Shown: one piece after another, positions 268 to 32,444 of the stretch
Position numbering within the stretch: the first letter of the stretch is position 1
Layout of the letters: each line of letters opens with the position of its first letter
NCBI GenBank assembly: GCA_025358525.1
Contig: JANYJI010000204.1
Location: 1-35,247 of the forward strand
Length of the DNA stretch: 35,247 bases
Direction: 5' to 3'
DNA from: Chloroflexota bacterium
GTDB lineage: Bacteria; Chloroflexota; Limnocylindria; Limnocylindrales; CSP1-4
The notes under the pieces: generated by a model
The model's database searches: none
The model's input: only the letters and a program-made list of their open reading frames with translations
Told to the model about the DNA's origin: nothing
Position numbers and translations under genes: made by a program

Positions 268-519
268 ATGCCGACGCTCCTCCGGACCGGTCCGTACACG
301 TTCTTTATCGTCCTCCACGACTGTGCCGAACGGAGACATGTCCACGTCCGCGGTGGGGGCCGGGGTGAGGCCAAGTACTGGCTGGATCCATTGGTGGAGC
401 AGGCTGCCACTCGGGGCTACACTGGCCGCGAACTCGCACGTATCGATCGGGAGATCCGCGACCATCGTGGTTCACTCATCGGGCGATGGCACGAAATCTG
501 CGAAGGCGAAACAACGTGA
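268..519 (+). CDS. DUF4160 family protein (putative toxin-antitoxin-associated)
   Basis: 83 aa; MPTLLRTGPYTFFIVLHDCAERRHVHVRGGGRGEAKYWLDP...RELARIDREIRDHR matches the DUF4160 pattern (P.HVHV....EAK.WL.P). Confidence 0.85.
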   Translation: MPTLLRTGPYTFFIVLHDCAERRHVHVRGGGRGEAKYWLDPLVEQAATRGYTGRELARIDREIRDHRGSLIGRWHEICEGETT

Positions 520-797
520 ATGCCGCGCTTGTCCGGGATGTCCGCGTGGACGACCACCAGATCACCTTCATCCTCACGGACGATCGCGAGGTTTCTGCGC
601 CCACGTCCTGGTCGCGGCTATTGACGGACGCCACAGAAAGGCAGCGCGCCAACTGGCGCCTCGGTGGCTTCGGGACGTACGTCGAGTGGCCGTCGATTGA
701 CGAGCATGTCGGTCTCTGGACGCTGCTGGGCGTTTCGGAGGAGGAACTGATGGAGGCCTCCGGGTTCGAGATCGGCCGGAATCCCATTCACACTTGA
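486..797 (+). CDS. DUF2442 family protein
   Basis: 103 aa, overlaps the 3' end of the DUF4160 gene; V.VDD..I...L.D.R.VS.P..W...L..AT...R..W...G.G..V.WP.IDE typical of DUF2442. The true start may be downstream of 486. Confidence 0.85.
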   Translation: MARNLRRRNNVNAALVRDVRVDDHQITFILTDDREVSAPTSWSRLLTDATERQRANWRLGGFGTYVEWPSIDEHVGLWTLLGVSEEELMEASGFEIGRNPIHT

Positions 798-1260: not shown

Positions 1261-2778
1261 CTACTCCGTTCTTGCCTCGTCCAGCAACTGACCATCCGGC
1301 CCTTGGAGCTGCAGGAGCAACGGGACCATACCCAGGGCGTGAGTGGAGCAGCTGAGGCAGGGGTCGTAGGCACGGACCAGGGCGGAGACGCGGTTGAGGG
1401 CACCTTCTTGGATCTTGTTGCCGTCGACGAACCTCCTGGCCACCTGCAGGATTCCGCGGCCGATGGCGAGGTTGTTGTGGCCGGTGGCGACAATCAGGTT
1501 GGCCCAGGTCATGGCGCCGTTGTCGTCCACCTTGTAATGGTGGATGAGCGTGCCGCGCGGGGCCTCGATGATGCCGATACCCTCGAGGTTGTTGACACCC
1601 GCGTGGGCGCGGACTTTGGTCCCGAGGATGGCCGAGTCGTCGAGCAACTCCCGCATGCGCTCGAGGGCGTACAAAGTCTCGATGAGTCGCGCGTAGTGGT
1701 AGTGGAAGCCGCTCTGGACGATGCGGCCGAGACGCCCGCGGTACTCCTCGAGCTCCGCGTCGGCCTCCGGCGTGCCGCAGTGGTCGGCGACGTTCAGGCG
1801 CGCGAGCGGGCCGACGCGGTAGATGCCGTCGGGGTAGCCGACGGGCTTGTAGTACGGCGCCTTCAGGTAGGAATCCGGGAGTGTTGCCTCCCCGATATAG
1901 GTCGCGTAGTCGTCGGGATTCACCTGGTCGGCGATGATGCTGCCGTCAGGGCCGATGAAACGCAGGTTTCCGTCGTAGAGCCGCAGCGAGCCGTCCGGTC
2001 CGACGAGGCCGCAGTACATCGTGGGGAAGTTTGAGAAGGACTCGATCTCGTTCGGGAAACTGTCGAGCGTCTTCTTCCAGAGCGCGAGCGTGCGCTTCAC
2101 GATCGCCATGGCCGCGGGCAACTCGGCCAGCGTCATCTCTTGCGCCTGCTGGTCGAACTGGGCGTTGACGCCGCCAGGCACGATCCACGAGGGGTGGATG
2201 CGCTCCTTGGCGAGCCGCTCGATCACCTGCTGGCCGAACTTGCGCAGAGCGATCCCGTCGCGCAGTGCGTCGGGGTGTGCCTCGAGCAGCCCCGCGATGT
2301 TGCGCTTGGCAGGATCCGAGTCCATGCCGAGCAGCAGGTCGGGCGCCGAGAGGTGGAAAAAGGACAGCGCATGCGACTGCACGAACTGGGCGCAGTGGAT
2401 CAGCTCCCGCAGCTTCCCCGCGGCGGCCGGGATGCGCACGGCCATGATCTCGTCGCACGCCTTTGACGAGGCGAGCAGATGGCTCACCGGGCAGATGCCG
2501 CAGATGCGCGATGTGATCGACGGCATTTCGTAGTACGGCCGTCCCTCGACGAACTTCTCGAACCCGCGGATCTGGGTCACGTGGAACTGCGTGTCGGTCA
2601 CTTGCCCAGCATCGTCGAGTTTGATCGTGATCCTGGCGTGGCCCTCGATGCGCGACACGTGGTCGATCGTGATCTTCCTCATGGCTGGTCTCCTGGCCTC
2701 GGCCGGCTGCGGCGCGGGCGCATATGCCACGACCTCCCGACCCAGCGGGGCGCGCGATGTTGCCTTCCTGGTCGCCAT
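1261..2778 (-). CDS. hoxH: [NiFe] hydrogenase large subunit, HoxH-like (group 3)
   Basis: N-terminal NiFe ligand motif RICGICPVSH and C-terminal DPCLSCSTH followed by a 16-residue tail. A likely alternative start is MRKITIDHVSRIEGHARI at 2682. Confidence 0.93.
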   Translation of the reverse strand: MATRKATSRAPLGREVVAYAPAPQPAEARRPAMRKITIDHVSRIEGHARITIKLDDAGQVTDTQFHVTQIRGFEKFVEGRPYYEMPSITSRICGICPVSHLLASSKACDEIMAVRIPAAAGKLRELIHCAQFVQSHALSFFHLSAPDLLLGMDSDPAKRNIAGLLEAHPDALRDGIALRKFGQQVIERLAKERIHPSWIVPGGVNAQFDQQAQEMTLAELPAAMAIVKRTLALWKKTLDSFPNEIESFSNFPTMYCGLVGPDGSLRLYDGNLRFIGPDGSIIADQVNPDDYATYIGEATLPDSYLKAPYYKPVGYPDGIYRVGPLARLNVADHCGTPEADAELEEYRGRLGRIVQSGFHYHYARLIETLYALERMRELLDDSAILGTKVRAHAGVNNLEGIGIIEAPRGTLIHHYKVDDNGAMTWANLIVATGHNNLAIGRGILQVARRFVDGNKIQEGALNRVSALVRAYDPCLSCSTHALGMVPLLLQLQGPDGQLLDEARTE

Positions 2779-2786: not shown

Positions 2787-3335
2787 CTACCCGAACCGCA
2801 GCTTGGAGCCGAGGTCCGGCTCGCGGCCTTCGAGCAGCTCACTCAGCACAAACAGGATCGCGCTGGGTTTCGGAGGGCAGCCGGGGACGTGGACGTCGAC
2901 CTTGATCGCCGAGTGCAGCGGCTGCGCTTGCTTGAGCAGGGCGGGCACGCCGTCCGTCGGCACGCCTGGTCGCTCGGTGCCTGGTCGCTCGGTTGCGCCC
3001 TCGACGTATACGCGCTCGAGCAGCTTGCGCGTAGGGATGCCGTTGCGCATCGACGGCACGTTGCCTGTCACTGCGCAGTCGCCGAGCGCCACCACGACCT
3101 TGCTGCGCACCCGCGCGATCTTCGCGAGCTTGAGGTCGTCCTGGCTGCTGACCGCGCCCTCGATCACGGCCACGTCGACACCCTCGGGCCACTCCTGCGC
3201 GTCGACCAGCGGGCCGAACACGATGTCGGCCTTCTCAAGCACGGCGACGATGCCCTCGTCAAGGTCGAGCAGCGACATATGGCAGCCCGAACAGCCGTCA
3301 AGCCAGCAGGTGCCGATCTTCGCCTTGTCCATCAC
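2787..3335 (-). CDS. hoxY: [NiFe] hydrogenase small subunit, HoxY-like
   Basis: CWLDGCSGCHMSLLD, GDCAVTGN and VPGCPPKP proximal [4Fe-4S] ligand motifs. Confidence 0.93.
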   Translation of the reverse strand: MMDKAKIGTCWLDGCSGCHMSLLDLDEGIVAVLEKADIVFGPLVDAQEWPEGVDVAVIEGAVSSQDDLKLAKIARVRSKVVVALGDCAVTGNVPSMRNGIPTRKLLERVYVEGATERPGTERPGVPTDGVPALLKQAQPLHSAIKVDVHVPGCPPKPSAILFVLSELLEGREPDLGSKLRFG

Positions 3336-4039
3336 TGGCCCTCGCGCATCGAGGTCAGGCGGCTCACGCCGGCCCGCTGCTTAGTCATTTCCTCGACCCC
3401 CCAACCCTTCTCGGCCATGGCGCCCGTGGGGCAGGCCTGCACGCACTTGCCGCAGCTGGTGCAGCTCGTGGCTTCGCCCCACGGCCGTTGCAACTCGGAG
3501 ACGAGCCGCGAGTGGATGCCGCGGCCGGCGATGTCCCACACGTGCGCGCCCTCGATCTCGGCGCAGGTGCGCACGCAGCGCGAGCACAGCACGCAGCGAT
3601 TGTGGTCGAGGACGTAGCGCGGGTGCGTGGTGTCGACGCTGAGTCGCGGGTAGTTGTACGGGTAGCGAACGTGCGTGACGCCGTGGTCCTGCGCCAGGGT
3701 CTGCAGCTCGCAGTGGCCCGAGGAAACACACACGGCACAGACGTGATTGCGCTCGACGAGCAGCAGCTCAATGACCATCTTCCGATAGGACTGGATCTGG
3801 GGCGAGGTGGTGGCAACCGCCAGGCCCTCTTGCACGGGCGTAGTGCAGGCGGGCAGCAGGCGGGCGACGCCGGACACCTCGACCATGCACAGCCGGCACG
3901 CGCCGACCGCGCTGAGGCCTTCCATATAGCAGAGAGCCGGGATGTACTTGTCGTGGGCTCGGGCAACCTCGAGGATCGTCTGGCCCGCGGTTGCCGCGAT
4001 CACCTCGCCGTCGATGCGGACCTTCACCTTATCGGTCAA
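3332..4039 (-). CDS. hoxU: NAD-reducing hydrogenase subunit HoxU (NuoG-N-like, 2Fe-2S and 4Fe-4S ferredoxin domains)
   Basis: CYMEGLSAVGACRLCMVEV [2Fe-2S], HVCAVCVSSGHCELQ His-Cys domain, CVLCSRC..C and CTSCGKCVQACP clusters. Start set at TTG 4039 (GGGAGGA SD just upstream); the tracked ATG at 4087 would overlap hoxF. Confidence 0.9.
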   Translation of the reverse strand: MTDKVKVRIDGEVIAATAGQTILEVARAHDKYIPALCYMEGLSAVGACRLCMVEVSGVARLLPACTTPVQEGLAVATTSPQIQSYRKMVIELLLVERNHVCAVCVSSGHCELQTLAQDHGVTHVRYPYNYPRLSVDTTHPRYVLDHNRCVLCSRCVRTCAEIEGAHVWDIAGRGIHSRLVSELQRPWGEATSCTSCGKCVQACPTGAMAEKGWGVEEMTKQRAGVSRLTSMREGQ

Positions 4040-4050: not shown

Positions 4051-7000
4051 CTATCTTTCGCTGCCGCGAACGTCGCAGCGCAGGCAACGGGTCGTTTCTT
4101 CCATCGCCGCCAGAGCCGTGAGGCCGAGCGACACCTCGGCATACGACTGCACTCGCTGGGCGGCCGGCATCTCGCCAGGCACGTGGCGGCCGAAGTCGCT
4201 CGGCGTCTCGGGCGGCTCCATCTGGTACTCGAAGTCGGGGATCAAGCTCGCGAAGCGGTCCTGCCCCATCAACCGCTTGTCGATGTTGCGGGCGGCCTTC
4301 TTGCCGATCCCCATTGCGTTCGACACGTTCGAGGCGCCGGTGATGAGGTCGCCGCCCGCATAGAAGCTGTCACGGCTCGTTTCGAGCGTGTAGCGGTCGA
4401 CCTCGATCGTGCCGGCCTCTTTCACCTTCAGGCCTGAGGCCTTGCAGAAGTCGGGGTCGACCTTCTCGCCGACGGCCAGGATCACGGTGTCGCACTCGAT
4501 GCGGATCACCTCGTCCGTCGGCACTGGCCGGCGGCGTCCCGAGGTGTCGAACTCGCCGGGCTTCGTTCTGACTGCCTCAATCGCGCGCACCTGGCCGTTC
4601 TTGTCGCCCGTGATCCGGTGCGGAGCCGCGAGATAGAGGAGCTTGGCGCCCTCGTGCTCGGCGGCCAGGATCTCTTCCGGAATCGCCGGCATGTCCTTGC
4701 GCTCGCGGCGGTAGACGATCGTGACGTCGGCGCCCAGACGACGCGCGGTGCGCGCGGAGTCGATCGCGGCGTTGCCTCCTCCGATCACCACAACGTTCTT
4801 CCCGACCGGGACCTGCTCGTTACGCGACACGGCCTCCAGGAACGGCAGCGCCGGGATCACGCCCGTGAGTTCGGTTCCGGGCAGATATACCCAGCCTTCC
4901 TTCCATGTGCCGATCGCGAGGAACACGGCGTCGTGCTGGTTGGCTAGCTCGTTGAGGCCGGGGCCCTCGCCCACGGTCACGTTGAACTGGAACTTCACGC
5001 CCAGCCGCTCGATCAGCTCAATCTCCTTGTCGAGGACCTTCTTCGGCAGGCGGTACTCCGGCAGCGCGTAGCGCAGCATGCCGCCGGCCTGCGGCCGCGA
5101 CTCGTAGACCGTGACGGAGTGGCCGAGGAGCGCCAGGTAGTAAGCACAGGCGAGGCCGGTCGGGCCGGCGCCCACGACCGCGATCTCGTGCCCGGTCGGC
5201 TCCAGCCTGCGCGCGAGCACCTTCTCGACCATCGGGTCGAACTTGTCGGTGAGCAACACCTCGTCGGCGATCTGGCGGTGGACATCGCGCATGTTCACGG
5301 ACTCGTCCACGGCGGCTCGGCGGCAGCGGTTGTCGCAGGGGTGCTGGCAGACGCGCCCCGTCGAGGCCGGCAGTGGGTTGTCGAGGATCACTGAGAGGAA
5401 CGCGTCCTCGAGCCGCTCCTCCTTGTACAGCTGCAGGAAGCGCGGGATGTTCATGTGGAGCGGGCAGGAGTTCTCGCATGGCGAGAGCGCCAGATCCTCG
5501 CACACGCCGGCGCGGCAGCGCTTCGCCACGATGTGGTCTTCGAACTCGTGCCGGAAGTGGCGCAGGCTCGTGAGAACGGGGTTGGGCGCGCTCTGGCCGA
5601 GCCCGCAGAGCGAGGTGTCACGGACCATGCGGCACAGCTCGTCGAGCGCCTCGATGTCCTCGTGCGTGGCCTTGCCAAGGGTGAAGCCGTTGAGCATGCG
5701 CAGCGCCTTGTCAAGGCCCACGCGGCACGGGACGCACTTGCCGCAGCTCTCCGAGTGCGTGAACTCGATGAAGTAGCGGGCGACGTCAACCATGCAGTTG
5801 TCTTCGTCCATCACAACCATGCCGCCCGAGCCCATGATCGAGCCGAGCTGCGCGAGCGTCTCGTAGTCGACAGGCGTGTCGAACATCTCCACCGGGATGC
5901 AGCCGCCCGAGGGGCCGCCCGTCTGCACGGCCTTGATGTCGCGGCCGTTGGTGCCGCCCTCACCGATGTCGTAGATGAACTTCGCGAGCGGCGTGCCGAG
6001 CGGCATCTCGACCAGGCCGGTGCTGTGCACCTTGCCGACCAGCGAGAACACCTTTGTGCCTGCGCTCTTGGCGCTGCCGATCTCGGTGAACCAGGCCGGC
6101 CCCTTGGAAACGATCGGGGCCACGTTGTACCAGGTCTCGACGTTGTTGATGTTGGTCGGCTTACCGTAGAGGCCCTTCTGCGCCGGGAACGGCGGCCGCG
6201 GCCGTGGCCGGCCGCACTCGTCCTCGAGCGACGCGATCAGGGCTGTCTCCTCGCCGCACACAAAGGCGCCGGCACCCTCGACCATCTCGATGTCAAAATC
6301 GAAGCCGCGCCCGAGCACGTTGTGGCCAAGGACACCGTAGGCCCGCGCCTGCTCAATCGCGCGCTCGAGGCGCAGCACCGCCAGCGGGTACTCGGCGCGC
6401 ACGTAGATGATCCCCTTGGCCGCGCCGGTGACGTAGCCAGCGATCATCATGCCCTCGAGGAGAGCGTGGGGGTCGGACTCGATCTCGTTACGGTTCATGT
6501 ACGCGCCGGGGTCGCCCTCGTCGGCGTTGCACACGAGGTACTTCTCGGGCCCGGCCGCCTTCGCCAGGAACTCCCACTTATTGCCGGTCAGATACCCGGC
6601 GCCGCCGCGACCACGCAGCTTCGAGGCCTTGATCTGCTCGATGACGCCGGCTGGGTTCTGGTCGATCAGGACCTTGTACAGGGCCTGATACCCACCGACC
6701 GCGATGTACTCCTCGATGTCGTCTGGGTTGATCAGGCCACAGTTGCGCAAGACGATCTTGACCTGCCCATTGAAGAACGGGATCTCGTTCCAGTTCGGCA
6801 CGTCCGGGTAGCCGGAGCCGTACTTCACGTGGCCGGTGAGATGGTCCCACTCCTCGATCTTGCACAGCACGATCTCGGCCGGCGGCAGTTGACCGAGGCC
6901 GTTCAAGATGTTGTCAACGTGGTTCGGCTGCACTTGGTGCAGCATCAGCAGCGGGCGGCCGGGCACCCACACATTGACAAGCGGCTCCTCGGCGCAGAAG

Positions 7001-7200
7001 CCGAAGCAGCCGACCGGCGCCAGTTGCACGGCGAGGCCGCTGGCGTCGATCTTGGACGCGAAGGCGCTGTAGACGGCCTCGGCGCCGTTGCCGGAGCCGC
7101 AAGTGCCCATACCGACTGCGATGCGCGGCCTGCTGGGCAGCAGCTTCGCAAGCCCGGCCTCGCGCACGGCGGAGAATGCGGCGAAGTCGTGAATCATCAC
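4051..7200 (-). CDS. hoxF: HoxF/NuoF diaphorase subunit fused to GltD/NfnB-like FAD/NAD(P)H oxidoreductase
   Basis: 1049 aa. Residues about 1-560: thioredoxin-like 2Fe-2S, FMN/NADH site (GRGGAGYLTGNKWEF, ADEGDPGAYMNR), SESCGKCVPCRVG. Residues about 565-1049: GltD 4Fe-4S (CENSCPLHMNIP...C..PCDNRCRR), FAD site (VVGAGPTGLACAYYL), NADPH site (VIGGGNAAIDSARTARRLGADVTIVYRRER), AGGDL.TGAS.V..A...GK.AA. Confidence 0.95.
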   Translation of the reverse strand: MMIHDFAAFSAVREAGLAKLLPSRPRIAVGMGTCGSGNGAEAVYSAFASKIDASGLAVQLAPVGCFGFCAEEPLVNVWVPGRPLLMLHQVQPNHVDNILNGLGQLPPAEIVLCKIEEWDHLTGHVKYGSGYPDVPNWNEIPFFNGQVKIVLRNCGLINPDDIEEYIAVGGYQALYKVLIDQNPAGVIEQIKASKLRGRGGAGYLTGNKWEFLAKAAGPEKYLVCNADEGDPGAYMNRNEIESDPHALLEGMMIAGYVTGAAKGIIYVRAEYPLAVLRLERAIEQARAYGVLGHNVLGRGFDFDIEMVEGAGAFVCGEETALIASLEDECGRPRPRPPFPAQKGLYGKPTNINNVETWYNVAPIVSKGPAWFTEIGSAKSAGTKVFSLVGKVHSTGLVEMPLGTPLAKFIYDIGEGGTNGRDIKAVQTGGPSGGCIPVEMFDTPVDYETLAQLGSIMGSGGMVVMDEDNCMVDVARYFIEFTHSESCGKCVPCRVGLDKALRMLNGFTLGKATHEDIEALDELCRMVRDTSLCGLGQSAPNPVLTSLRHFRHEFEDHIVAKRCRAGVCEDLALSPCENSCPLHMNIPRFLQLYKEERLEDAFLSVILDNPLPASTGRVCQHPCDNRCRRAAVDESVNMRDVHRQIADEVLLTDKFDPMVEKVLARRLEPTGHEIAVVGAGPTGLACAYYLALLGHSVTVYESRPQAGGMLRYALPEYRLPKKVLDKEIELIERLGVKFQFNVTVGEGPGLNELANQHDAVFLAIGTWKEGWVYLPGTELTGVIPALPFLEAVSRNEQVPVGKNVVVIGGGNAAIDSARTARRLGADVTIVYRRERKDMPAIPEEILAAEHEGAKLLYLAAPHRITGDKNGQVRAIEAVRTKPGEFDTSGRRRPVPTDEVIRIECDTVILAVGEKVDPDFCKASGLKVKEAGTIEVDRYTLETSRDSFYAGGDLITGASNVSNAMGIGKKAARNIDKRLMGQDRFASLIPDFEYQMEPPETPSDFGRHVPGEMPAAQRVQSYAEVSLGLTALAAMEETTRCLRCDVRGSER

Positions 7201-7742
7201 CGTGCGCTCTCCTTACGCAGCGCGTCGACCTCGCGCATCAGCGCCTGCTCCTTGACGTGCCCGCGGATCGCGTGGTCAATCTCGACCACCGGGGCGAGCG
7301 CGCACTGGCCGAAGCAGGCGACGGTGCGGATGGTGAGGCGCCGGTCCGGCGTCGTCAGCGTGAGCTTGTCGGCGTCGTCACTGGCCTCCCGCAGGCCCAG
7401 CTGGAGCTTCACGCGCTCGAGCAGCGCCCGGGAGCCGCGAGTGTGACAGGCCGTGCCACGGCAGATGGCCACGGTGTGCGTGCCCTGCGGATCAAGGTTG
7501 AAGAGTGCAAAGAACGTCGCGACGGCATAGACCTGCGACTGCGGGACGCCCGTGCGTGCAGCCACGTACTCGAGCGTCTCCATCGGGAGGTACTTGTTGC
7601 GGTTGCGGTCCTGCAGCTTCTCCAGGATGCCGAGCAGCGCGCCTGGGCGGCCGACCTGATCGCCGATGATCCGGTCGATCAGGTCCTGGTCCTCGTGATG
7701 CGGCGGCGGAGACACCGATCCGGTGGTCATCGAACTCTCCAA
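7197..7742 (-). CDS. hoxE: HoxE/NuoE-like thioredoxin-fold [2Fe-2S] subunit
   Basis: YVAARTGVPQSQVYAVATFFALF, C-R-G-T-A-C and VACFGQCALAPVV 2Fe-2S ligands; ATGA overlap with the hoxF start. Confidence 0.93.
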   Translation of the reverse strand: MESSMTTGSVSPPPHHEDQDLIDRIIGDQVGRPGALLGILEKLQDRNRNKYLPMETLEYVAARTGVPQSQVYAVATFFALFNLDPQGTHTVAICRGTACHTRGSRALLERVKLQLGLREASDDADKLTLTTPDRRLTIRTVACFGQCALAPVVEIDHAIRGHVKEQALMREVDALRKESAR

Positions 7743-9141: not shown

Positions 9142-9168
9142 CCCAGGCGACGCCCTCGCCTGAGCGAA

Positions 9169-9252
9169 GTCATGTGGTGCGGTGTAGGCGCCGGACTTCT
9201 GGCTGAGGGAGTCATGTGGTGCGGTGTAAGCGCCGCCTTCTGGCTGCCAGAT
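9169..9252 (+). repeat. two 42-bp tandem units starting gtcatgtggtgcggtgtaRgcgccg
   Basis: gtcatgtggtgcggtgtaggcgccggacttctggctgaggga (9169-9210) followed by gtcatgtggtgcggtgtaagcgccgccttctggctgccagat (9211-9252). Confidence 0.85.
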
Positions 9253-10183: not shown

Positions 10184-10231
10184 GCGAGCGGCGGCGAGCG
10201 CCCGCGCCCCGCGCCATGCGCCCGCGACCCG

Positions 10232-10390
10232 CGCCCGCGGCTGCGGCTGGCCCGCCTACGCGCCCGCTCCTGCCGTTGGCCCGCCTACGCGCCCGCGGCC
10301 GCCACACGAGCCATGCGCCCCCTACGCGCCTGCGGCTGCGGCTGGCCCGCCTACGCGCCCGCGGCTGCGGCTGGCCCGCCTACGCGCCCG
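10232..10390 (+). repeat. degenerate 29-bp GC-rich tandem repeats (consensus cgcgcccgcggctgcggctggcccgccta)
   Basis: cccgcctacg recurs at 10251, 10280, 10346 and 10375; two adjacent intervals are exactly 29 bp; strongly C/G skewed low-complexity tract. Confidence 0.75.
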
Positions 10391-10469
10391 CGCCATGCTC
10401 CCGCGACCCGCGCCCGCGACACGCGCCCACGCCCGCCGTTGGCCCGCCATCGCAGGCCCGCGCCCGCCG

Positions 10470-15834: not shown

Positions 15835-17037
15835 TCAGCGGCCGCGCTTGGCGCCCGGGTTAGTCCGGCGATCGTACCAGCGGATCACGAACCAGCACGC
15901 CAGGAGGATGACCGCGGCCACCAGAGCGGCGCCCTGGACGGGCGGATAGCCCGCGATGCTCGTAGCCGTGTCGACGATAGTGGATGTCGTTGGCGGCTGG
16001 GGCGTGGTCAGAGCCGATGCAGTCGTGCCCGTGGGCCCAGCCGACGTCGGCCCGCCTTGACCCAGGAAGAGCGATGAGCCGCTGGGGACCGCGGCCATGG
16101 CGACCGCGGCCCGGTCATCCTTGAGTTCGAGTGTCCGCTGCAGCGAGCCCTTCGAGTCGAAGACTTGCACGCCCCTGGACTCGGCTACATGAAGGACCGA
16201 ACCCTCGTCGCTGGGCGTCATGGATATCGCCGCCTCGCGAGTGGTCGCGAACGCGATGGCCGTCTTCCCGTCGACCGTCCAGAGGCTCGTACCAGAAGCC
16301 ACGATGTCCGTCGACGCCATCGACGCCACGGCGATCGGGGGGGCGGACAGGGCTACCGTCCAGGTAGTGGCCAGCGACGTCAGGTCGACCCGCATCAGAG
16401 CGTTGGGGGTCTGGGTGACGACCAGGACGCCACCCCGGTCGCGGTCGATCGTCATAGCCACGATCCCGCCCGAAACGGTCGCCTTCTTCATGGTTGACGT
16501 GGCCGGATCAACAACCTCGAGCCAGCTCTTGCCGGCTTCGGCCACGACTACACGCGGATCGCGGCGATCGCCGGCGAGCAGGTTCCCGGATCCGGGCAGT
16601 TGAGAACTTTCGGTCACTGCCCCGCCATGAACCACGGCGAAGGCCAGAGTACGTCGAGTTGGCATCGTGGCCACGAGAACCTGGCCGGCTGGAAATGCCA
16701 GCGCCGAAACCTGGCCGGGCATCGTAATCGAGGCCTGGGCATCCAGGGTGGCGATGTCGATTGGAACCACTTTGGCGCTGGCGCCGCTGGCGTAGAGAGT
16801 GTGGCCATCGGGGCTGAAGGCCAGCGACTGCGGGGCCGGAACGATCGGAATCGTGCTCACGACCGTCGACGTCTTGACGTGGATTTCGAGCACCCCGGCG
16901 GAACTGGCCACGTAGAGGTCCCCCACCCCATTCGCCAGAACAGGGCCGGATAACGTCAGCGTCAGCAGCAACGCGACCACGCCGCTCGCTGCGAGTGCCT
17001 TCCCGATTTTCACGCAAATACCTGGCTCATTAGTCAT
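15835..17037 (-). CDS. secreted/anchored YVTN/WD40-like beta-propeller protein
   Basis: N-terminal signal-like segment (ALAASGVVALLLTLTLSGPVLA), propeller repeat (LAFSPDGHTLYASGASAKVVPIDIATL), C-terminal TM (GAALVAAVILLACWFVIRW) and basic tail. Confidence 0.75.
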   Translation of the reverse strand: MTNEPGICVKIGKALAASGVVALLLTLTLSGPVLANGVGDLYVASSAGVLEIHVKTSTVVSTIPIVPAPQSLAFSPDGHTLYASGASAKVVPIDIATLDAQASITMPGQVSALAFPAGQVLVATMPTRRTLAFAVVHGGAVTESSQLPGSGNLLAGDRRDPRVVVAEAGKSWLEVVDPATSTMKKATVSGGIVAMTIDRDRGGVLVVTQTPNALMRVDLTSLATTWTVALSAPPIAVASMASTDIVASGTSLWTVDGKTAIAFATTREAAISMTPSDEGSVLHVAESRGVQVFDSKGSLQRTLELKDDRAAVAMAAVPSGSSLFLGQGGPTSAGPTGTTASALTTPQPPTTSTIVDTATSIAGYPPVQGAALVAAVILLACWFVIRWYDRRTNPGAKRGR

Positions 17038-17074
17038 GCCTCGAGAGGTATCGGCCGGAACGAGTGGGATGGGA

Positions 17075-17109
17075 GGCGGCCGGACCGGCTATGAGTCGGT
17101 CCGGCCGCC
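17075..17109 (-). terminator. GC-rich hairpin downstream of flgE
   Basis: Perfect 13-bp inverted repeat GGCGGCCGGACCG-N9-CGGTCCGGCCGCC between the flgE stop (17144) and the next gene (17037); no U-tract. Confidence 0.6.
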
Positions 17110-17143
17110 CCTTGTCAAACGCTCCGCCGAGGCGGATTGACTA

Positions 17144-18388
17144 CTAACGCTTGAGGTTCACGAGATCCTGAAGCATCTCATCGGAAGTGGTGATGACGCG
17201 GCCGTTGGCCTGGAAGCCTCGTTCGGCCGTAATCATGCCTGTGAATTGGGTGGCCAGGTCCACGTTCGACATCTCGAGCGCGCCGGTCATGACCGTGCCG
17301 CGGCCGCCGGTGCCGGCGGTGCCGATGTTGGCCGCTCCGGAGGCAGACGTAGCGGCGAAGTTGTTCTGGCCGGCTCGCAGGAGGCCGGCCGAGTTCAGGA
17401 AGCCGGCGAGGGCGATCTGGCCCAGGACCTGCGTCTGGCCGTTGCTGTAGACGCCCGAGAGCTGACCGGCGTTGCCGACGGCGAAGGTGACCAGGGTGCC
17501 CGAGGTAAAGCCGTCGGTCTGGCCGGCGGGCTGGCTCGTGCCGCTGAACTGGGTCATCTGGGTGAAGTTGATGGCAGGCATCGTGGCAGTTGCGCCGTCT
17601 GGGAAGGTGAAGCTCAGGCTTCCAGTGGACGCCGTCTCAATGCCTGCCGTGGAGTAGGTCAGGGTGCCGTTGTTGGTGGGCGGAGCGGGCGTCTGGGCGA
17701 TGGCGATGCCGGCATCGGCCGCATCCTTAGTGGCGATCCAGCTCCAGTCATTTGCCGCGGTCTTGGTGAAGGTGATCTTCACGGAGTGGGCAATACCCAG
17801 GCTGTCGAAGACCGTCATCGTCGTTGGGACCGTGGCCCCAACCGCCACGCCGGCGTCGAGGTTTCCGTTGAGATTCACGGTCGAGGTTGCGAGAGCGGTA
17901 GTGCGCTGGCCGATCGGGATTACGAGGTTAGTGATCGGCTGGGTGATGTCGATCTTGCCGGCAGCGTCGGCCTGCCAGCCCTGGACCTTCAGGCCGCTGG
18001 CCGGGTTGGCCAGTGAGCCGTCGAGGGCGATGTCGAAGGCGCCGTCGCGGGTGTAAACGGTCTGCGATCCATCCGACTCGATGAAGAAGCCGTCACCCTG
18101 GATTGCCATGTCCGTCGTCTTGCCGGTCGACTGCAGGTTGCCCTGAGTCTGCAGAACGTCGATGCCGGCGACTGTCATGCCGAGGCCAATCTGAGCTGGG
18201 TTAATGCTGCCGAGGCCGCCCTGCGGGGCAGTGGCGCCGTGGAGAGTCTGCGAGAGGATGTCCTGGAAGTTGACGCGGCCGGACTTGAAGCCGACCGTGT
18301 TTACGTTGGCGATGTTGTTGCCGATGACGTCCATCATGATCTGATGGCCGCGCAAACCGGAAATCGCCGAGAACATTGAGCGCAGCAT
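17144..18388 (-). CDS. flgE: flagellar hook protein FlgE
   Basis: MLRSMFSAISGLRGHQIMMDVIGNNIANVNTVGFKSGRVNFQDILSQTL and C-terminal MSNVDLATQFTGMITAERGFQANGRVITTSDEMLQDLVNLKR. Confidence 0.95.
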   Translation of the reverse strand: MLRSMFSAISGLRGHQIMMDVIGNNIANVNTVGFKSGRVNFQDILSQTLHGATAPQGGLGSINPAQIGLGMTVAGIDVLQTQGNLQSTGKTTDMAIQGDGFFIESDGSQTVYTRDGAFDIALDGSLANPASGLKVQGWQADAAGKIDITQPITNLVIPIGQRTTALATSTVNLNGNLDAGVAVGATVPTTMTVFDSLGIAHSVKITFTKTAANDWSWIATKDAADAGIAIAQTPAPPTNNGTLTYSTAGIETASTGSLSFTFPDGATATMPAINFTQMTQFSGTSQPAGQTDGFTSGTLVTFAVGNAGQLSGVYSNGQTQVLGQIALAGFLNSAGLLRAGQNNFAATSASGAANIGTAGTGGRGTVMTGALEMSNVDLATQFTGMITAERGFQANGRVITTSDEMLQDLVNLKR

Positions 18389-18522
18389 TCGAGTGCCTCC
18401 TAAGGCTGGCGTTCACGCCTCATGGCGCGACGCGATGTGGCGTCCGCGGGCAGGCCAGCTTCCTCAGAGAGGTCCGGCTATCGACCTGACACACACGGCG
18501 GACTGTGGTTTTGCGATTGCGC

Positions 18523-18540
18523 GTTTGGCTTCCGCCAAAC
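18523..18540 (-). promoter_or_regulatory. RNA hairpin with GGAA tetraloop in the flgE leader
   Basis: Minus strand GTTTGGC-GGAA-GCCAAAC, perfect 7-bp stem. Confidence 0.45.
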
Positions 18541-18547
18541 CGCATGT

Positions 18548-18577
18548 GTAATTGCGGAGCTTCAGCTACGCAATTAC
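18548..18577 (-). promoter_or_regulatory. hairpin spanning the stop codon of the TIGR02530-like gene
   Basis: GTAATTGCG-g-AGCT-TC-AGCT-a-CGCAATTAC, 9-bp plus 4-bp inverted repeat. Confidence 0.5.
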
Positions 18578-18997
18578 TACGGCGTCTATCTGCGTGAAAA
18601 CACGCTCCTTGCTCTTGTTCGGCTCAACGGCCGTTACCACGGTGTGGCTGGGTACGTGGACGACGAAGGCGTACTGGTCGAGCATCACCAGGGACTGCCG
18701 GCTGCCGCGCTGGCTGAGGGTATCCATGGCCTTGCTGAGGCGATCCAGTTGCTCCCCGGCGAGGGGGATCTGACGCTGCTCGACGCGTCTGAGGGCATGC
18801 TCCGAAACGTGGAGCGAGCGCTCATCGGCTGCCGCGAACAGCGCATCCCGGAAGGCCGAGCTGCCGCCCGATGGCGGCGGCGCCCCCGATGTGGGCTGGT
18901 CGAGCGGGCTCGAGCTAGGCGCCTGGCTCGGATCTCTGACGAGACCTCCGCCCTGCAACGCCAGTTCGGGCGCGATGCGATCGATCGTGACAATCAC
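18566..18997 (-). CDS. flagellar operon protein, TIGR02530-like
   Basis: LHVSEHALRRVEQRQIPLAGEQLDRLSKAMDTLSQRGSRQSLVMLDQYAFVVHVPSHTVVTAVEPNKSKERVFTQIDAVVI; located between flgD and flgE as typical. Confidence 0.85.
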   Translation of the reverse strand: MIVTIDRIAPELALQGGGLVRDPSQAPSSSPLDQPTSGAPPPSGGSSAFRDALFAAADERSLHVSEHALRRVEQRQIPLAGEQLDRLSKAMDTLSQRGSRQSLVMLDQYAFVVHVPSHTVVTAVEPNKSKERVFTQIDAVVIA

Positions 18998-19030
18998 CTC
19001 CTGTTGGCTGGTGCGGTCCTGGCCGCGGTT

Positions 19031-19528
19031 CTAGATGCTGGGGTTCGTCACGTTCGTGACAGCATCGGGCTTGATATATTGGCTGCCAATTTGCAGTACG
19101 AGGCCCGCGTCGTTGGACTGCGTAACCGAGGTCACGACGCCGTCCACGGCCTTCCCGTTGACGTCCACGCCGGTCACTCGTTTGCCGATCAGGGCTGAAC
19201 TCTGGGCCAGCTGCGAACCCGTTAATGCCTTCTCAACCTGCTGCAGTGTCTGGATCTGCGACATCTGAGACAGCTGCGAAAGCATCTGCTGGTCGTCGAC
19301 CGGCTTAGTCGGATCCTGGTTCTGGAGTTGCGCCAGGAAGAGCTTCATGAAGTCGTCGGTCGTCAGGCCGTACATGCTCGACGACCCGCTCTTGCTGACC
19401 TGGGCGGCGCCTCCCGAGCCCGAGCTGGCGTTCGTGGCGGCAGCCGGAGTCGCGGTCGCGTTGGCGGCCGCCCTGTGGCCACTGACGAAGGGAGTGAAGG
19501 GCGTGAAGGTGGTTGGGCTGATGCTCAT
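19031..19528 (-). CDS. flgD: flagellar hook capping protein FlgD (short form)
   Basis: DDFMKLFLAQLQNQDPTKPVDDQQMLSQLSQMSQIQTLQQV...ALIGKRV. Start set at ATG 19528; the upstream part of the tracked ORF overlaps fliK. Confidence 0.92.
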   Translation of the reverse strand: MSISPTTFTPFTPFVSGHRAAANATATPAAATNASSGSGGAAQVSKSGSSSMYGLTTDDFMKLFLAQLQNQDPTKPVDDQQMLSQLSQMSQIQTLQQVEKALTGSQLAQSSALIGKRVTGVDVNGKAVDGVVTSVTQSNDAGLVLQIGSQYIKPDAVTNVTNPSI

Positions 19529-19541
19529 CAGACGGCTCCTC

Positions 19542-22112
19542 TCAGGCTCTGATATCGAGGGACGGGCCGCCCGGGAGCGGCCCACGTTGAATTGGCCGGG
19601 TGGCTCTCGTGGTTTCTGGCCGGAGCACCGGCGTGGCAGGGGACGTGCTACTCGAGGGACCGCCCGACCCGGCGCCCTGACCGGAGTTGTGCCCGGAACC
19701 GCCCCCGGCCGCGCCCGAGTTCTGACTGCCGAGACCTTGACCTTGTTCGCCGTGGCCGCCCTGGCCAGCGCCGGCGCCGTAGCCACCATTGGCTGTCCAG
19801 CTGGCAGCATCGAAGGCGTTGCCGCCGGTGCGGCCGCCGGTTGTGGCACTGCCGCCGCTCTCGCTGCGGACTGTGACGCTGACGCCTGCCAGAGCGTCGC
19901 TAGTGGCGCGGATGTGGGCCGCAGCCTCGGCCAGAGCGTCGGCCGCGACGCGGTCACGCACGACAAGCTGGGCCTGGACGACTTCCCCTGCCCGGCCGGT
20001 CACGACAAGTCGCACGTCGCCCAGGACAGGGTCGCTGAGCCGGGCCTCGAGGGATGGGCCGGCCGAGGTCTGGTAGGTATGGATAGTCTGAACGACTTGG
20101 TTCATCAGTTTCTCAGCCGAGTCCCCAAGCGCGGCCGGTCCCGTGTTGCCGACGACCGCCTCGGCCGACAGTGTTTTCGGAGCGGCACCGGTGACTGAGG
20201 CCGCGGCCGCGGCGAATGAGGCCGCTGAATCGGCCGCAGAGGCTAAGGCGCCGGGGGCGGATGCCGGGGCGGGATCGCTCGCGCGAGTGGCGGAGTCGGT
20301 CGAGTCGGAGTTTGCAGTCTGGTCCGTGGCGGTTCCGACGGCGGCCCCACCTTGCTGGGCAGCGACGCCGATGACGCGCGGCCCGGCCGTGGCTGGGGAG
20401 GTCGCCGTGTCGGTCACCGAGGCGGACGTCGCGAAGGACGATGGGCCGTTTCGTCGGACCACGCGCGGCCCGATACGAGCCACGTCGGCGACCACAGCCG
20501 AGTCGGCAATCGCGGCCGAGGCCTGGATTTCGGGCGGTACGGGCTGACCCGCCTGGTCCTGATTGACCGCCGACGCCAGCGTGGCCGCCTCACTGCCAGC
20601 CGGGGCAGTGGGCCGGACGAGAGCTGGGGCAGACGGCATTGAGGCGATGCCCGGAGGTCCGGAGACAGGGCCGGTCGGAGAGGCCGGCGCCGCGGACAGG
20701 GCCGTGGACGTCATCGGGATATGCGCATTAGGGCTCGTGGGGTGCGCAGTGGACGCGACCACCGGTGCGGGTGCCGTGGCCCGGGCCTGGGCGCCGGACT
20801 GGGTCCCGGCCGGCGGTTGATCGACGAGCCGCTGAGTCTGGGCCGACCCAACATTGGCGGCCGGGCGAGTCGTTGACGTCGCGGATGGTCCGGAGGGGTC
20901 TGCGTTCAGAGCCGCCACAGGAGCCAACTCCACAACCTGCGACGGCCGAGTCGAAGGGGCGTTCGCGACGGCGTCCGTCGGGGCGACCAGAGCGGGCTCG
21001 ACAGAGGTCGGCGTCGCGGCGGGCCCGGCGGCCGTGGATCCGACCTGCGCAGGCGCTGCCGCAGTTGGAACTGGACGCGGCACGGCAGAGGCCTCCGGGC
21101 CGGTGGCGCGGCCATCGGCCGCCGTTGGCGCGGCCGGCACGGCCACGCCAGCCGGCGTAGCTGCCGTAACGGCCGTTGCGGGCGGCGTAACCGCGGCTGT
21201 TGCCGTCGCCACTTGAGTCGCACTGACCGACGAGGCGGCCGTCGCAAGAGTCTGAGCCGCAGAGGCAACCGTCCGAACGGACGGGGCCGCATCCACGGCC
21301 GTGGCCGAGGCCACCACAGCTGAGGTGACTGGCATACCGGCCGAGGCAGTCTGGGAGGATGCCGGCACAGATGAAGTCGGGTCCTGCGTCGCGGCGTCTG
21401 CTCCCGCCGCCATGCCCTGGCGACCCACGGTCGATTCCCGGGTCCCGGAGGCTGATGTAGCCACTCCGATGGACTGGGCCGGCGCCGAGGCTCGGCCAGC
21501 GGCCTCAATAGCGCCAACGGCCGCGGCCGCGGAACCGGCCGCCGACGAGGCGGAAGACCCTGCGCTGGCGCCGCCGGCCTCGGGCACGATCGAAGCCGCG
21601 ACCATGGCCGCACTGAACGTCGACGCTGCCTGACCCTCGGCCCGGTCGGGCGCGGCGGCGGCCGCACTCGAGCGCCGCGCGGAGCTGGCGGAAGCGGTGT
21701 TGAGTTTGGTGGTCCGCGTCGTCAGCTTGGAGACGGGCCTGTTCGGCCGGGAGGTCAGGCCGGTGCTTTCGGCGGCTCTGTAGGCCAGTTGGCCCGCGGA
21801 ACCATAGGCGGTCGGGCGTACGGGAGCGTGCCGGGCCGATGCGGCGTGCCACACGGGCGTTTCGCCCGCCTTGGTAAGCCCTTCTTGCGGGCCCGCTGGG
21901 GTGTCAATTCGGCCGAACCCACTTGCCACCGTCGCTACACCACGGACAGCCGCCTCCCGCGCTGCTTCGTCCCTGGCGTCAAGACGTACAGCCTGAGCCT
22001 GGGCGAATGCATCGCTGAAGGTCATCTCGTCCGCTGCCACAGGAACGTTGAGCGGGCCAGGAATCGGACCGACGCCTGGACCGAGCGTGACGTTGGCGTT
22101 TAGACCGGCCAT
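19542..22112 (-). CDS. fliK: flagellar hook-length control protein FliK (Ala/Pro/Thr-rich)
   Basis: 856 aa low-complexity linker, then a Flg_hook-like domain (LEARLSDPVLGDVRLVVTGRAGEVVQAQLVVRDRVAADALAEAAAHIRATSDALAGVSVTV); position between flgB and flgD. Confidence 0.8.
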   Translation of the reverse strand: MAGLNANVTLGPGVGPIPGPLNVPVAADEMTFSDAFAQAQAVRLDARDEAAREAAVRGVATVASGFGRIDTPAGPQEGLTKAGETPVWHAASARHAPVRPTAYGSAGQLAYRAAESTGLTSRPNRPVSKLTTRTTKLNTASASSARRSSAAAAAPDRAEGQAASTFSAAMVAASIVPEAGGASAGSSASSAAGSAAAAVGAIEAAGRASAPAQSIGVATSASGTRESTVGRQGMAAGADAATQDPTSSVPASSQTASAGMPVTSAVVASATAVDAAPSVRTVASAAQTLATAASSVSATQVATATAAVTPPATAVTAATPAGVAVPAAPTAADGRATGPEASAVPRPVPTAAAPAQVGSTAAGPAATPTSVEPALVAPTDAVANAPSTRPSQVVELAPVAALNADPSGPSATSTTRPAANVGSAQTQRLVDQPPAGTQSGAQARATAPAPVVASTAHPTSPNAHIPMTSTALSAAPASPTGPVSGPPGIASMPSAPALVRPTAPAGSEAATLASAVNQDQAGQPVPPEIQASAAIADSAVVADVARIGPRVVRRNGPSSFATSASVTDTATSPATAGPRVIGVAAQQGGAAVGTATDQTANSDSTDSATRASDPAPASAPGALASAADSAASFAAAAASVTGAAPKTLSAEAVVGNTGPAALGDSAEKLMNQVVQTIHTYQTSAGPSLEARLSDPVLGDVRLVVTGRAGEVVQAQLVVRDRVAADALAEAAAHIRATSDALAGVSVTVRSESGGSATTGGRTGGNAFDAASWTANGGYGAGAGQGGHGEQGQGLGSQNSGAAGGGSGHNSGQGAGSGGPSSSTSPATPVLRPETTRATRPIQRGPLPGGPSLDIRA

Positions 22113-22114
22113 GG

Positions 22115-22564
22115 CTAGCGCCCTCCGAGCACGGTGTTGAGCTGTGCGAACTTGCCGGCGATCAGCCGCGCGTTCGCCGAGTACTTGATCTGGGTCTGCG
22201 TAAGAGCGGTCATCTCGGTCTCGAGATCGACCCTGTTGCCATCGTTGCGGGTGTTCTCGTTGACGGTCGAGACGTCGGCTGACGAGCCGTTACCGGCGGT
22301 GCCCGTGGCGGAGTAGTGGCGTGAATCGGTCGTCTTCATGGCCACGTCCGCGGACGGGCCGGCCGATGCCAGGAGGGCGTTCCCAGGTTCGGTCGACCAA
22401 GCGGCGATCTCACGCTTGAGGGCCGTCTGGAAGTCGACCGCCTGGGGTGCATAACCGGGCGTATCGATGTTGGCGAGGTTGGAAGAGATGATCGACTGCT
22501 GAGCCGTCAGGCCATCGAGGGCCTGGCTCAGAATGGACGTAGTGCGATCGATCAGGCCGCTCAT
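22115..22564 (-). CDS. flgB: flagellar basal-body rod protein FlgB
   Basis: ALDGLTAQQSIISSNLANIDTPGYAPQAVDFQTAL...VDLETEMTALTQTQIKYSANARLIAGKFAQLNTVLGG. Start set at ATG 22564, ATGA overlap with the upstream gene. Confidence 0.93.
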   Translation of the reverse strand: MSGLIDRTTSILSQALDGLTAQQSIISSNLANIDTPGYAPQAVDFQTALKREIAAWSTEPGNALLASAGPSADVAMKTTDSRHYSATGTAGNGSSADVSTVNENTRNDGNRVDLETEMTALTQTQIKYSANARLIAGKFAQLNTVLGGR

Positions 22565-23700
22565 GCGGCAGCCTCCTGATAGCTGTTCCACTTACCTAGG
22601 ATCCGCGCGATGTAGCCCCGAGTGCTTGCGGGGACTGCCCCAAGACGACCAACGGTTCCCGGTCCCGCGTTGTAGGCGGCCAGGGCCAGGTCGACTCGAC
22701 CGAAGCTCTTGAGTTGCGTGGCGAGGTACTTGGCCCCGCCGTTGAGGTTCTGCTGCGCATCGAACGGGACGGTGACGCCGAGCGAAGCGCCCGTTCTGGG
22801 CATCAGCTGAGTCAGGCCCTGGGCTCCACAGCTGGAAACGGCCTTGGGATTGAAGCTCGACTCGGCGGCGACGAGCGAGGCCAGCAGCGACGGGTCAATG
22901 CCATTTGCGATTGCCGCCGAACGGATCTCGGCCGCGTACGGGATGAGCGAAGATGCCGCATCGAAGCGGGCCAGCGCGGAACTGCCGGATACCTCCGTGA
23001 GCGACGACGGGTCGCGCGGGTTGGGGCCGAGTAGTGTCGTGGGATCGGGCATATTGCCGGCGGCCAACCAGCTGGACGGGTCCACCGCCGCACCGGCGCT
23101 CGTGTACAGCCCGAAGTGGAGGTGTGGGCCGGTAGTTACGCCTGTCACGCCCACGCGGCCGACCGACTGACCCGCGGCGACGCGCTGGCCAACGGTTACC
23201 GCCAAAGACGGATCGAGGTGTGCGTACAGAGTGCTGTAGCCGTTATCGTGGCGGATTTTGACCACGACAGCACCGTCGGACTGGCGTCCGGCGTAGGTGA
23301 CCGTGCCCGACGCGGCTGCACCAACGGCGGCGCCGAGTGGCGCGGCCAGGTCGATGCCGTTGTGGTAATGGGCGTATGTCACACCGCCTACCGTCGCCGA
23401 CGGCTCGAGGGTCTCGCTGGAAGGCCCGAAAGACTGGGTCAGGGGCGCTCCGGGAAGCGGCGAAGTGAAGCGTGCGTACGACCTACCGTTCGACGCGGAC
23501 ACGCCGCTCGCGGCGGAGTCGGCGGAGCCGGCGGGCGACGAGGCGTAGCTCTGGAGAACGCCCGAGAAGGGCGATCCACTGACCAGCCCTTGCCCAGCCG
23601 TGTCCAGAATAGAACGACCGCCCGGGGCCCAGCTGGGATCCATGCTGTTGATGAGCGAGTCGAGCTGCGAGATCCGCGAGATGCAGTCGGTGTAGCTCAT
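22561..23700 (-). CDS. bifunctional M23 (LytM) peptidase / SLT lytic transglycosylase in flagellar operon
   Basis: M23: HYHNGIDLAAPLG...VKIRHDNGYSTLYAHL...GPHLHFGLY. SLT: LLASLVAAESSFNPKAVSSCGAQGLTQLMPRTG...NLNGGAKYLATQL...LALAAYNAGPGTV. Confidence 0.93.
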   Translation of the reverse strand: MSYTDCISRISQLDSLINSMDPSWAPGGRSILDTAGQGLVSGSPFSGVLQSYASSPAGSADSAASGVSASNGRSYARFTSPLPGAPLTQSFGPSSETLEPSATVGGVTYAHYHNGIDLAAPLGAAVGAAASGTVTYAGRQSDGAVVVKIRHDNGYSTLYAHLDPSLAVTVGQRVAAGQSVGRVGVTGVTTGPHLHFGLYTSAGAAVDPSSWLAAGNMPDPTTLLGPNPRDPSSLTEVSGSSALARFDAASSLIPYAAEIRSAAIANGIDPSLLASLVAAESSFNPKAVSSCGAQGLTQLMPRTGASLGVTVPFDAQQNLNGGAKYLATQLKSFGRVDLALAAYNAGPGTVGRLGAVPASTRGYIARILGKWNSYQEAAA

Positions 23701-24152
23701 CGGTTCTGCCTCGTCCGGCGACTGGCGAACTGCGTCGTGGCTATCTCGGCCATGGCCAGGACATCGAGATGCTCTCGTTGGCGCCTCTCCGCGACCTGGA
23801 ATCGGTCCCTCAACCGCTCCACGACCTCGCGCTGCCGGTTGGCATCCGCCAGGACTCGACGGGCTTCAAAGAGAGCGTTTGTCGCCCGGCCCAACTGCTC
23901 CTGCGTAGCGACGATCGCCCGCTGCGCGGCGGCCACAGCGAAGACGGCCGACTGGAGTTGTCCAGCCTCAGCCCGTTTTGTCTGGAGGCCTGCGAGCCAG
24001 CGCAGCTCCTCACCCGCCCGCCCCTGCGCGGCTTCCACGACAGCCACGGCGCGCTGGTGAACATCGATGGAGCGGCTCAGTTCGATGCGAGCCGTCTCCT
24101 CTGCCATCTCGCGTAGGCGCAGGACGATACCGAGGCGGAAACGACCGCTCAT
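23697..24152 (-). CDS. fliJ: flagellar export chaperone FliJ
   Basis: 151-aa coiled-coil (FRLGIVLRLREMAEETARIELSRS...) directly downstream of fliI with ATGA overlap. Confidence 0.8.
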   Translation of the reverse strand: MSGRFRLGIVLRLREMAEETARIELSRSIDVHQRAVAVVEAAQGRAGEELRWLAGLQTKRAEAGQLQSAVFAVAAAQRAIVATQEQLGRATNALFEARRVLADANRQREVVERLRDRFQVAERRQREHLDVLAMAEIATTQFASRRTRQNR

Positions 24153-25669: not shown

Positions 25670-26472
25670 GCGACCTCCTCCTCGATCGTGCCGTGGGCGA
25701 GATTCGGAATGGCTCGATCGAGGGCGATGCCGATCTCCTCGAGCTGGGCTTCCAGGCCCGCCTCGACGAAGCCGTGCTCATAGCGAAGAGTGCAGCCGCC
25801 TGCAGGCAACGTGGGGTCGCCCTCGAATAGCCACTTCTTGCCCAGGTACGCTCGGCCGTGCAGCGCTTCCCAGGCCTGGGCAACCGGCTCCACGGCCGCG
25901 GGGTTCAGGAGGACATGGGCGTCGGGCGAGCCGTTGATCGTGCTCACGGCTGCTTCGAGAGCGGCGCACAGCAGACTCGGCTCGATGCGAACCTCGTGCT
26001 GGATGATCCGTTTGGCCACCGCCAGAGCCAGCTCCGCGATCGAGTGGGCAATCTCGGAGGTCCTGTCAGGGGCCACGGCCTGGAGTCGCTCGGCCAGGGC
26101 GGAAGCGCCCTCGACTGCGGCTCGAAGCTCAGCCTCGGCACGGTTGCGTCCGATCTCGTAGCCACGATCTTCCGCGGCTCGCTCGATGAGCCGAATCTCT
26201 TCGGCCAGGGCGGCCTGATCGGCACTGAGCGCGACTGACTGCGGGCTGCCGGCCTCCGACGGAACGCCACCTCGAGCGCCGCCGTGCGCGCCGCCCCAGT
26301 TACGGCCACGCAGGACCGAGGTCGTGCCAGTCCGCTCCCCTGCCCGAACTGCTGGCGAAGCGGGCACCACGGACGACGCCACGGTTCCTGGGGACGCGGC
26401 GGCTGACTGCGACGCACTCGCCCCGGCCGGGCCGCCATCGTCGTGAATGAGTCGCCAGCTAGACGAAGGCAT
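25666..26472 (-). CDS. fliH: flagellar assembly protein FliH
   Basis: C-terminal FliH/V-ATPase-E-like region (LALAVAKRIIQHEVRIEPSLLCAALEAAV...VLLNPAAVEPVAQAW) between fliG and fliI. Confidence 0.88.
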   Translation of the reverse strand: MPSSSWRLIHDDGGPAGASASQSAAASPGTVASSVVPASPAVRAGERTGTTSVLRGRNWGGAHGGARGGVPSEAGSPQSVALSADQAALAEEIRLIERAAEDRGYEIGRNRAEAELRAAVEGASALAERLQAVAPDRTSEIAHSIAELALAVAKRIIQHEVRIEPSLLCAALEAAVSTINGSPDAHVLLNPAAVEPVAQAWEALHGRAYLGKKWLFEGDPTLPAGGCTLRYEHGFVEAGLEAQLEEIGIALDRAIPNLAHGTIEEEVA

Positions 26473-29175: not shown

Positions 29176-29188
29176 CGATCAGCCGCCC

Positions 29189-29560: not shown

Positions 29561-29563
29561 GGC

Positions 29564-29983: not shown

Positions 29984-30092
29984 GAAACGCGTCCTTCGGC
30001 TGTTCGGTGAACTCTCTCCGGGGTCTATCGACGTCCATCAACTCACCGAAACCGCGAGCATCTTCGGCTGGCCGGAGGGCCGCCGGTATCAG

Positions 30093-32427: not shown

Positions 32428-32444
32428 TGGCGTGGGCGGCGTTT

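Follow-up and report, generated by a model that had tools for sequence, protein, structure and literature searches.

Described relatives and the hydrogenase operon

Electron-bifurcating enzymes of the Bfu type are defined by a domain carrying clusters B3 and B4 (PMC9304861), and in these enzymes low-potential electrons have been proposed to reach ferredoxin through the arm formed by clusters C1 and B2, a proposal which is still debated. In NiFe-HydABCSL of Acetomicrobium mobile (NiFe-Bfu, structures 7t2r/7t30) the ligands of the B2 [2Fe-2S] cluster are C438, C476 (Thr in most homologues), H525, C531 and C536 (PMC8880783, PMC9304861), and the B2 His is found in virtually all BfuB subunits and is absent from non-bifurcating homologues (PMC9304861). 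In the sub-type I BfuABC [FeFe] hydrogenase of Hydrogenedentota the B3/B4 domain of BfuB is replaced by DPD_II and a domain for flavin adenine dinucleotide (FAD) and nicotinamide adenine dinucleotide (phosphate) (NAD(P)), while group 3d NiFe enzymes of Hydrogenedentota were read as two clusters short and probably unable to bifurcate (PMC11406978). Here we describe a gene in which the diaphorase subunit HoxF is fused to a GltD-type flavoprotein within a hoxE-F-U-Y-H operon, located on a 35,247-nt stretch of DNA from a Chloroflexota bacterium (contig JANYJI010000204.1, assembly GCA_025358525.1; the whole stretch is called the window below).

The fused gene is a single open frame of 1049 residues which starts at GTG 7200, or alternatively at ATG 7197 to give 1048 residues, and its start overlaps the hoxE stop (Table 1). 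Pfam domains were found in the order Complex1_51K (residues 190-361), NADH_4Fe-4S (472-556), Fer4_20 (559-648) and Pyr_redox_2 (672-964), corresponding to PF01512, PF10589, PF14691 and PF07992, the four families expected from a sequence-only reading made before this analysis, and a C-terminal motif RCLRCD is located at 1038-1043. Compared with solved structures the NuoF half matched at E=1e-181 and the GltD half at E=6e-109, far above chance. That reading had also placed a complete HoxF/NuoF and GltD in one frame within a hoxE-F-U-Y-H order, and the open frame, the domains and the gene order, with five tightly packed genes on the minus strand, bore this out.

The open frame and its fused architecture are real. 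The same HoxF-GltD junction was present in 48 aligned loci from Chloroflexota, Acidobacteriota and other phyla, mostly metagenome bins, among them independent genomes from the window's own genus and family (L091-L095, L123, L124), and purifying selection was evident both on GltD (ratio of nonsynonymous to synonymous substitution, dN/dS, 0.06-0.18) and over all parts tested, orphan modules included (0.04-0.37). Because of this recurrence an assembly error merging two genes, which had been raised as a possible objection, was ruled out. One diverged fused homologue (L097/L111, G015:C65) contained a single in-frame TAG stop.

The best Protein Data Bank (PDB) match of every subunit was to 7t2r/7t30, with E-values of 1e-181 for the fused subunit (7t2r_B), 8e-160 for HoxH, 3e-69 for HoxU, 4e-45 for HoxY and 2e-30 for HoxE. 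In the HoxH tree, in which as in the other trees the PDB rows were transcribed from printed alignments, the clade of the window grouped with 7t2r_D and the HoxH of 5xf9 fell outside both. Canonical group 3d Hox was on these two grounds rejected as the nearest relative. The earlier designation of the complex as HoxEFUYH holds for the gene order and for the HoxU family (NF005745, 350.1 bits, cut-off 333), features which are shared with the group 3d enzymes HoxFUYH/HoxEFUYH (5xf9, Synechocystis), but the complex itself is closest to NiFe-HydABCSL rather than to canonical HoxF/HoxH, and the group 3d enzymes have a single nucleotide site.

With NiFe-HydABCSL the operon shares the five-subunit logic and the B1, B2, C1, A1-A4, S1 and NiFe sites; unlike it, the BfuA counterpart is short and HoxU-like without the A5 domain, and the fused subunit carries GltD instead of B3/B4. 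The C1 [2Fe-2S] ligands of HoxE (C90, C95, C139, C143) were all kept in 26/26 relatives, as were 15 Cys of HoxU, in which clusters A1-A4 are present; the four cluster Cys of HoxY were kept in 18/18. HoxH contains both CxxC ligand motifs, kept across relatives, and has a C-terminal extension beyond DPCLSCSTH, and hypD for NiFe maturation is present in the same genome.

The junction and the GltD module

The N-terminal thioredoxin-like region of the fused protein has three Cys (C34, C65, C69), like StnB/NfnB, whereas 7t2r_B has four (B5 [2Fe-2S]). B1 is a [4Fe-4S] cluster with ligands C486/C489/C492/C532, and alignment to 7t2r_B placed the B2 ligands at C469, T507, H556, C562 and C567. Among the 48 fused proteins C469 was conserved in 47, H556, C562 and C567 in all 48, and position 507 was Thr in 38 and Cys in 3. 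All three bifurcating-type signatures of PMC7311640 (A233/M235, F313 and GGPSG) were also present in the window protein.

In 47 ferredoxin-type BfuB proteins the first B3 Cys is located 12-13 residues beyond the last B2 Cys, and in the window protein the first Cys of the GltD clusters is located 8 residues beyond it. Based on this spacing GltD occupies the place of the ferredoxin-docking B3/B4 domain. No Fer4 dicluster was matched by Pfam in the 1049-residue protein, in which GltD comes directly after B2, and B3/B4 was absent from every fused protein examined. A HoxF with a GltD module had been described previously for this gene; both parts are indeed complete, but at its junction GltD replaces B3/B4 and is not simply an addition.

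Ligands for two [4Fe-4S] clusters were located in GltD at C575, C579, C618, C622, C626, H641, C1039 and C1042. The first five were conserved in 48/48 rows and C1039 and C1042 in all 45 rows with data. The motifs for FAD (GAGPTG, 677) and NADPH (GGGNAA, 807; YRR, 830) were near-invariant in the 48-row alignment, so that the loss of FAD- or NAD(P)H-binding residues, considered earlier as a possible weakness, did not apply. Dead-end cluster branches are known in relatives (A4/A5 in 7t2r, C1/C2 in StnC; PMC8880783, PMC10482914) and GltD could likewise be a relic with a structural or regulatory role that carries no electrons, but with its FAD, NADPH and cluster motifs all conserved across phyla and its dN/dS low, we consider this very improbable.

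The arrangement of the module is that of StnABC/Nfn-ABC (8oh5, 9bov, 9n5u), in which a BfuB-type subunit with flavin mononucleotide (FMN) is joined by a StnC-type GltD with two [4Fe-4S] clusters, FAD and NADPH; the first two NfnL-type ligand cysteines are located at the C-terminus in the window GltD, as in StnC, and in trees the HoxF half grouped with StnB/NfnB. Unlike here, those complexes carry GltD in the A subunit, keep B3/B4 on the B subunit and have no hydrogenase; the window HoxU (about 235 residues) is without GltD. A possible NADPH-linked complex I is encoded in the same genome by a cluster with NuoC, NuoD, NuoH and NuoF (contig C146, L090:5438-8389, plus strand); in its NuoG-like protein GltD lies, as it does in StnC, between the 2Fe-2S domain and the 4Fe-4S dicluster.

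The proximal cluster has an unusual ligand, Lys170 in StnC and Glu in NfnB, and in StnABC the homologous FAD is non-bifurcating and hands electrons from NADPH on to the FMN module (PMC10482914). At the equivalent position 641 the fused proteins have His in 34 rows, which marks the clade of the window, or Lys in 14 rows from the other fused proteins, and never the Glu of NfnL. A second bifurcating flavin at the GltD FAD, like that of NfnAB, has been suggested for FeFe sub-type I (PMC11406978) and would be in keeping with the NfnL fold and with Arg 717, which is invariant in the fused proteins and aligns with NfnB R201/StnC R239. Since Glu is replaced by His or Lys at position 641, however, and since StnC with its Lys does not bifurcate at this FAD and the operon has no NfnS-like partner gene, this candidate was set aside as scarcely probable. 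By its residue 641 the GltD FAD is of the StnC kind, with bifurcation at this site not favoured, and the module is presumably specific for NADP, to judge from homology.

An AlphaFold model of the fused protein (predicted local distance difference test, pLDDT, 86; predicted template modelling score, pTM, 0.60) had a hinge at residues 571-577 with pLDDT below 50. When used in a structure search it returned the same families as sequence, with GltD having the same fold as NfnL, and among the 50 best PDB chains listed none covered both halves.

Proposed coupling of H2 to two nicotinamide pools

The interpretation we lean towards, still tentatively, is that of a soluble [NiFe] hydrogenase of HydABCSL build in which a GltD/StnC-type NADP(H) module has replaced the ferredoxin-docking B3/B4 domain, and NADP(H) has replaced ferredoxin. 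It is based on the match of every subunit to 7t2r/7t30, the retention of B2 and C1, the position of GltD at the B3/B4 site and the conservation of GltD; what the sequences firmly establish is that the subunits and their cluster ligands are present, that GltD is conserved and sits at this place, and that the ferredoxin domain has been lost. H2 would be oxidized at HoxH and electrons would pass through S1-A3-A2-A1-B1 to the FMN of HoxF, as in 7t2r, where NAD+ would receive hydride. The low-potential arm would run from C1 of HoxE through B2 to the GltD [4Fe-4S] clusters and FAD, and from there to NADP+ instead of ferredoxin; the cluster equivalent to C1 is essential in StnABC (PMC10482914). The net reaction would be the reversible 2 H2 + NAD+ + NADP+ = NADH + NADPH + 2 H+. 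The previous expectation that an additional flavin site and an additional nucleotide site would couple H2 to two nicotinamide pools is supported to the extent that both sites are present and such coupling is predicted; bifurcation, also proposed, may occur in the enzyme but is disfavoured at the GltD FAD.

From physiological potentials of -280 mV for NADH, -380 mV for NADPH and -414 mV for H2 (PMC9304861) we computed that about 0.07 atm H2 is required to reduce NADP+ directly and about 0.0015 atm when NAD+ and NADP+ are reduced in a coupled manner. Coupling would thus allow NADPH to form even where H2 is too scarce to reduce NADP+ directly and, if the proposal is correct, one enzyme would feed both catabolism (NADH) and biosynthesis (NADPH) from H2 oxidation with no ferredoxin. 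The fusion would also provide a natural domain swap with which the B2/C1 arm can be probed as a low-potential path in Bfu enzymes.

Several observations weigh against this proposal. The operon has the FMN/NAD and B1 domains of BfuB, the B2 ligands, a BfuC with C1, a BfuA with A1-A3 and the SL subunits, but because the C-terminal 4Fe-4S ferredoxin domain with B3/B4 (IPR017896) is missing, the published definition excludes the window protein from the Bfu beta subunits, although it may function like one. The AlphaFold model, with its pTM of 0.60 and flexible hinge, did not fix the orientation of GltD. A second NiFe operon in the same genome (C217, L089:5062-9612, minus strand) encodes a plain HoxEFUYH and serves as a natural control: its HoxF ends right after the B2 motif and has neither B3/B4 nor GltD, yet keeps B2 and the bifurcating-type residues. 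Neither B2 nor the residues of PMC7311640 can therefore prove bifurcation, and this use of them was rejected; they are necessary at best. The HydB of S. wolfei, a characterized protein without B3/B4, is non-bifurcating (cited in PMC11406978; PMC7311640).

The same S. wolfei and C217 proteins, together with StnC, in which the homologous FAD serves simply for the entry of NADPH electrons (PMC10482914), favour the chief alternative, a two-headed enzyme without bifurcation in which FMN serves NAD(H) and the GltD FAD serves NADP(H), both equilibrating with H2 through shared clusters (an H2:NAD(P)+ oxidoreductase and transhydrogenase). Free equilibration would, however, collapse the NADPH/NADH gradient, and a plain diaphorase would have no obvious use for B2 and C1, which hardly vary within the fused clade. 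We regard this alternative as a serious one, somewhat less probable than the coupled enzyme.

Catalytic partners, phylogeny and neighbouring genes

Full-length fusions were found in Chloroflexota, Acidobacteriota, Pseudomonadota, Kiritimatiellota, Bacteroidota, Omnitrophota and Spirochaetota, and the fused protein was paired with three catalytic modules. HoxYH was the partner in the family of the window and in many Acidobacteriota, [FeFe] HydA in L028, L029 and L032, and a molybdopterin formate dehydrogenase adjoined BfuB-GltD in L114, L115, L117-L119, L122 and L038, where the same head may work with formate, NAD and NADP. Recurrence with all three modules is as expected for a self-contained NAD/NADP head. 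In five other Chloroflexota loci (L112, L113, L116, L120, L121) HoxYH was accompanied by a weak FdhF-like stretch beside HoxU, 23-31% identical, which we read as a degenerate HydA tail. In L120, L122 and L038 two BfuC-BfuB pairs, one GltD-fused and one plain, lay near a single BfuA and perhaps form complexes with two nucleotide arms.

The sub-type I [FeFe] enzymes have the same BfuB architecture, and the FeFe relatives L028, L029 and L032 fell within the fused clade of the window; the catalytic module of sub-type I is [FeFe] HydA, in contrast to HoxU and HoxYH here, and the window HoxU has no H-cluster domain. Novelty had been placed in the coupling of the fusion to a [NiFe] module. Since BfuB-GltD has been reported before in [FeFe] hydrogenases (PMC11406978), what is new is indeed the pairing and not the fusion, but NiFe is not the sole new partner, formate dehydrogenase being another. 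No description of a NiFe-GltD, HoxF-GltD or formate dehydrogenase version was found in open-licence PMC papers.

Trees of the HoxF half and of the GltD half concurred on the clade of the window, in which the FeFe rows were the first branch. The fused label required at least 2-3 changes over supported branches of the HoxF trees and 5 on the HoxH tree, which indicates that heads and catalytic modules have been re-paired; a single origin of all fusions was unsupported. With slightly more reserve, we suggest a ferredoxin-independent branch of bifurcating enzymes in which NADP+, through GltD on BfuB, would act on the low-potential side and NAD+ on the high-potential side. One head would then serve NiFe hydrogenase, FeFe hydrogenase or formate dehydrogenase, and the fusion would have arisen more than once. 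Two bins labelled Ancalomicrobiaceae (L019, L021) had operons nested among Acidobacteriota in the trees, reflecting either lateral transfer or mislabelled bins.

Nine Acidobacteriaceae-type rows, forming one clade, had hoxE, the fused gene and hoxU without an adjoining catalytic gene in the stretch examined, some contigs ending soon after. These orphan operons (e.g. L018, L020, L030, L033, L036, L037) were under purifying selection, and in six orphan-module genomes (L015, L020, L030, L033, L036, L037) a plain HoxEFUYH was present on a separate contig. Their maintenance would suit a Stn-like enzyme in which ferredoxin is still involved, through HoxE/HoxF or HoxU, so that a single complex would bring together H2, NADPH, NADH and ferredoxin; Synechocystis HoxEFU binds ferredoxin at the HoxE/HoxF junction (PMC7363133), and the grouping of the HoxF half with StnB/NfnB points the same way. 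We nevertheless judge such an enzyme unlikely, given that B3/B4 is the established ferredoxin-docking domain of the family and no fused protein examined retains it.

Table 1. Features of the fused hydrogenase operon (window coordinates)
Feature	Position	Strand	Details
HoxE/BfuC-like subunit	7197..7730	-	177 residues from ATG 7730; GGAG before ATG; PF01257; best PDB match 7t2r_C
Fused BfuB/HoxF-GltD subunit	4051..7200	-	1049 residues; open frame, Pfam and alignment
BfuB/HoxF half, residues 1-567	5500..7200	-	PF01512, PF10589; alignment to 7t2r_B
Linker 568-574, seven residues, last B2 Cys to first GltD cluster Cys	5479..5499	-	Spacing comparison and model hinge
GltD/StnC-like half, residues 572-1043	4072..5487	-	PF14691, PF07992; best PDB matches Nfn-ABC/StnC A subunits
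HoxU/BfuA-like subunit	3332..4039	-	About 235 residues from TTG 4039; GGAG upstream; best PDB match 7t2r_A
HoxY/HydS small subunit	2787..3335	-	One [4Fe-4S] cluster; PF01058; best PDB match 7t2r_E
HoxH/HydL [NiFe] large subunit	1261..2778	-	505 residues; PF00374; best PDB match 7t2r_D

Downstream of the hydrogenase operon a small DUF2442 protein is encoded at 489-797 (plus strand). A gene with a helix-turn-helix domain is flanked by GC-rich tandem repeats at 9160-9246 and 10198-10436 (42-bp unit; 6/29/95-bp units). From about 17000 to 34500 the translations resemble flagellar and chemotaxis genes, including hook, rod, MS-ring, FliI-like and FliG-like frames and response regulators.

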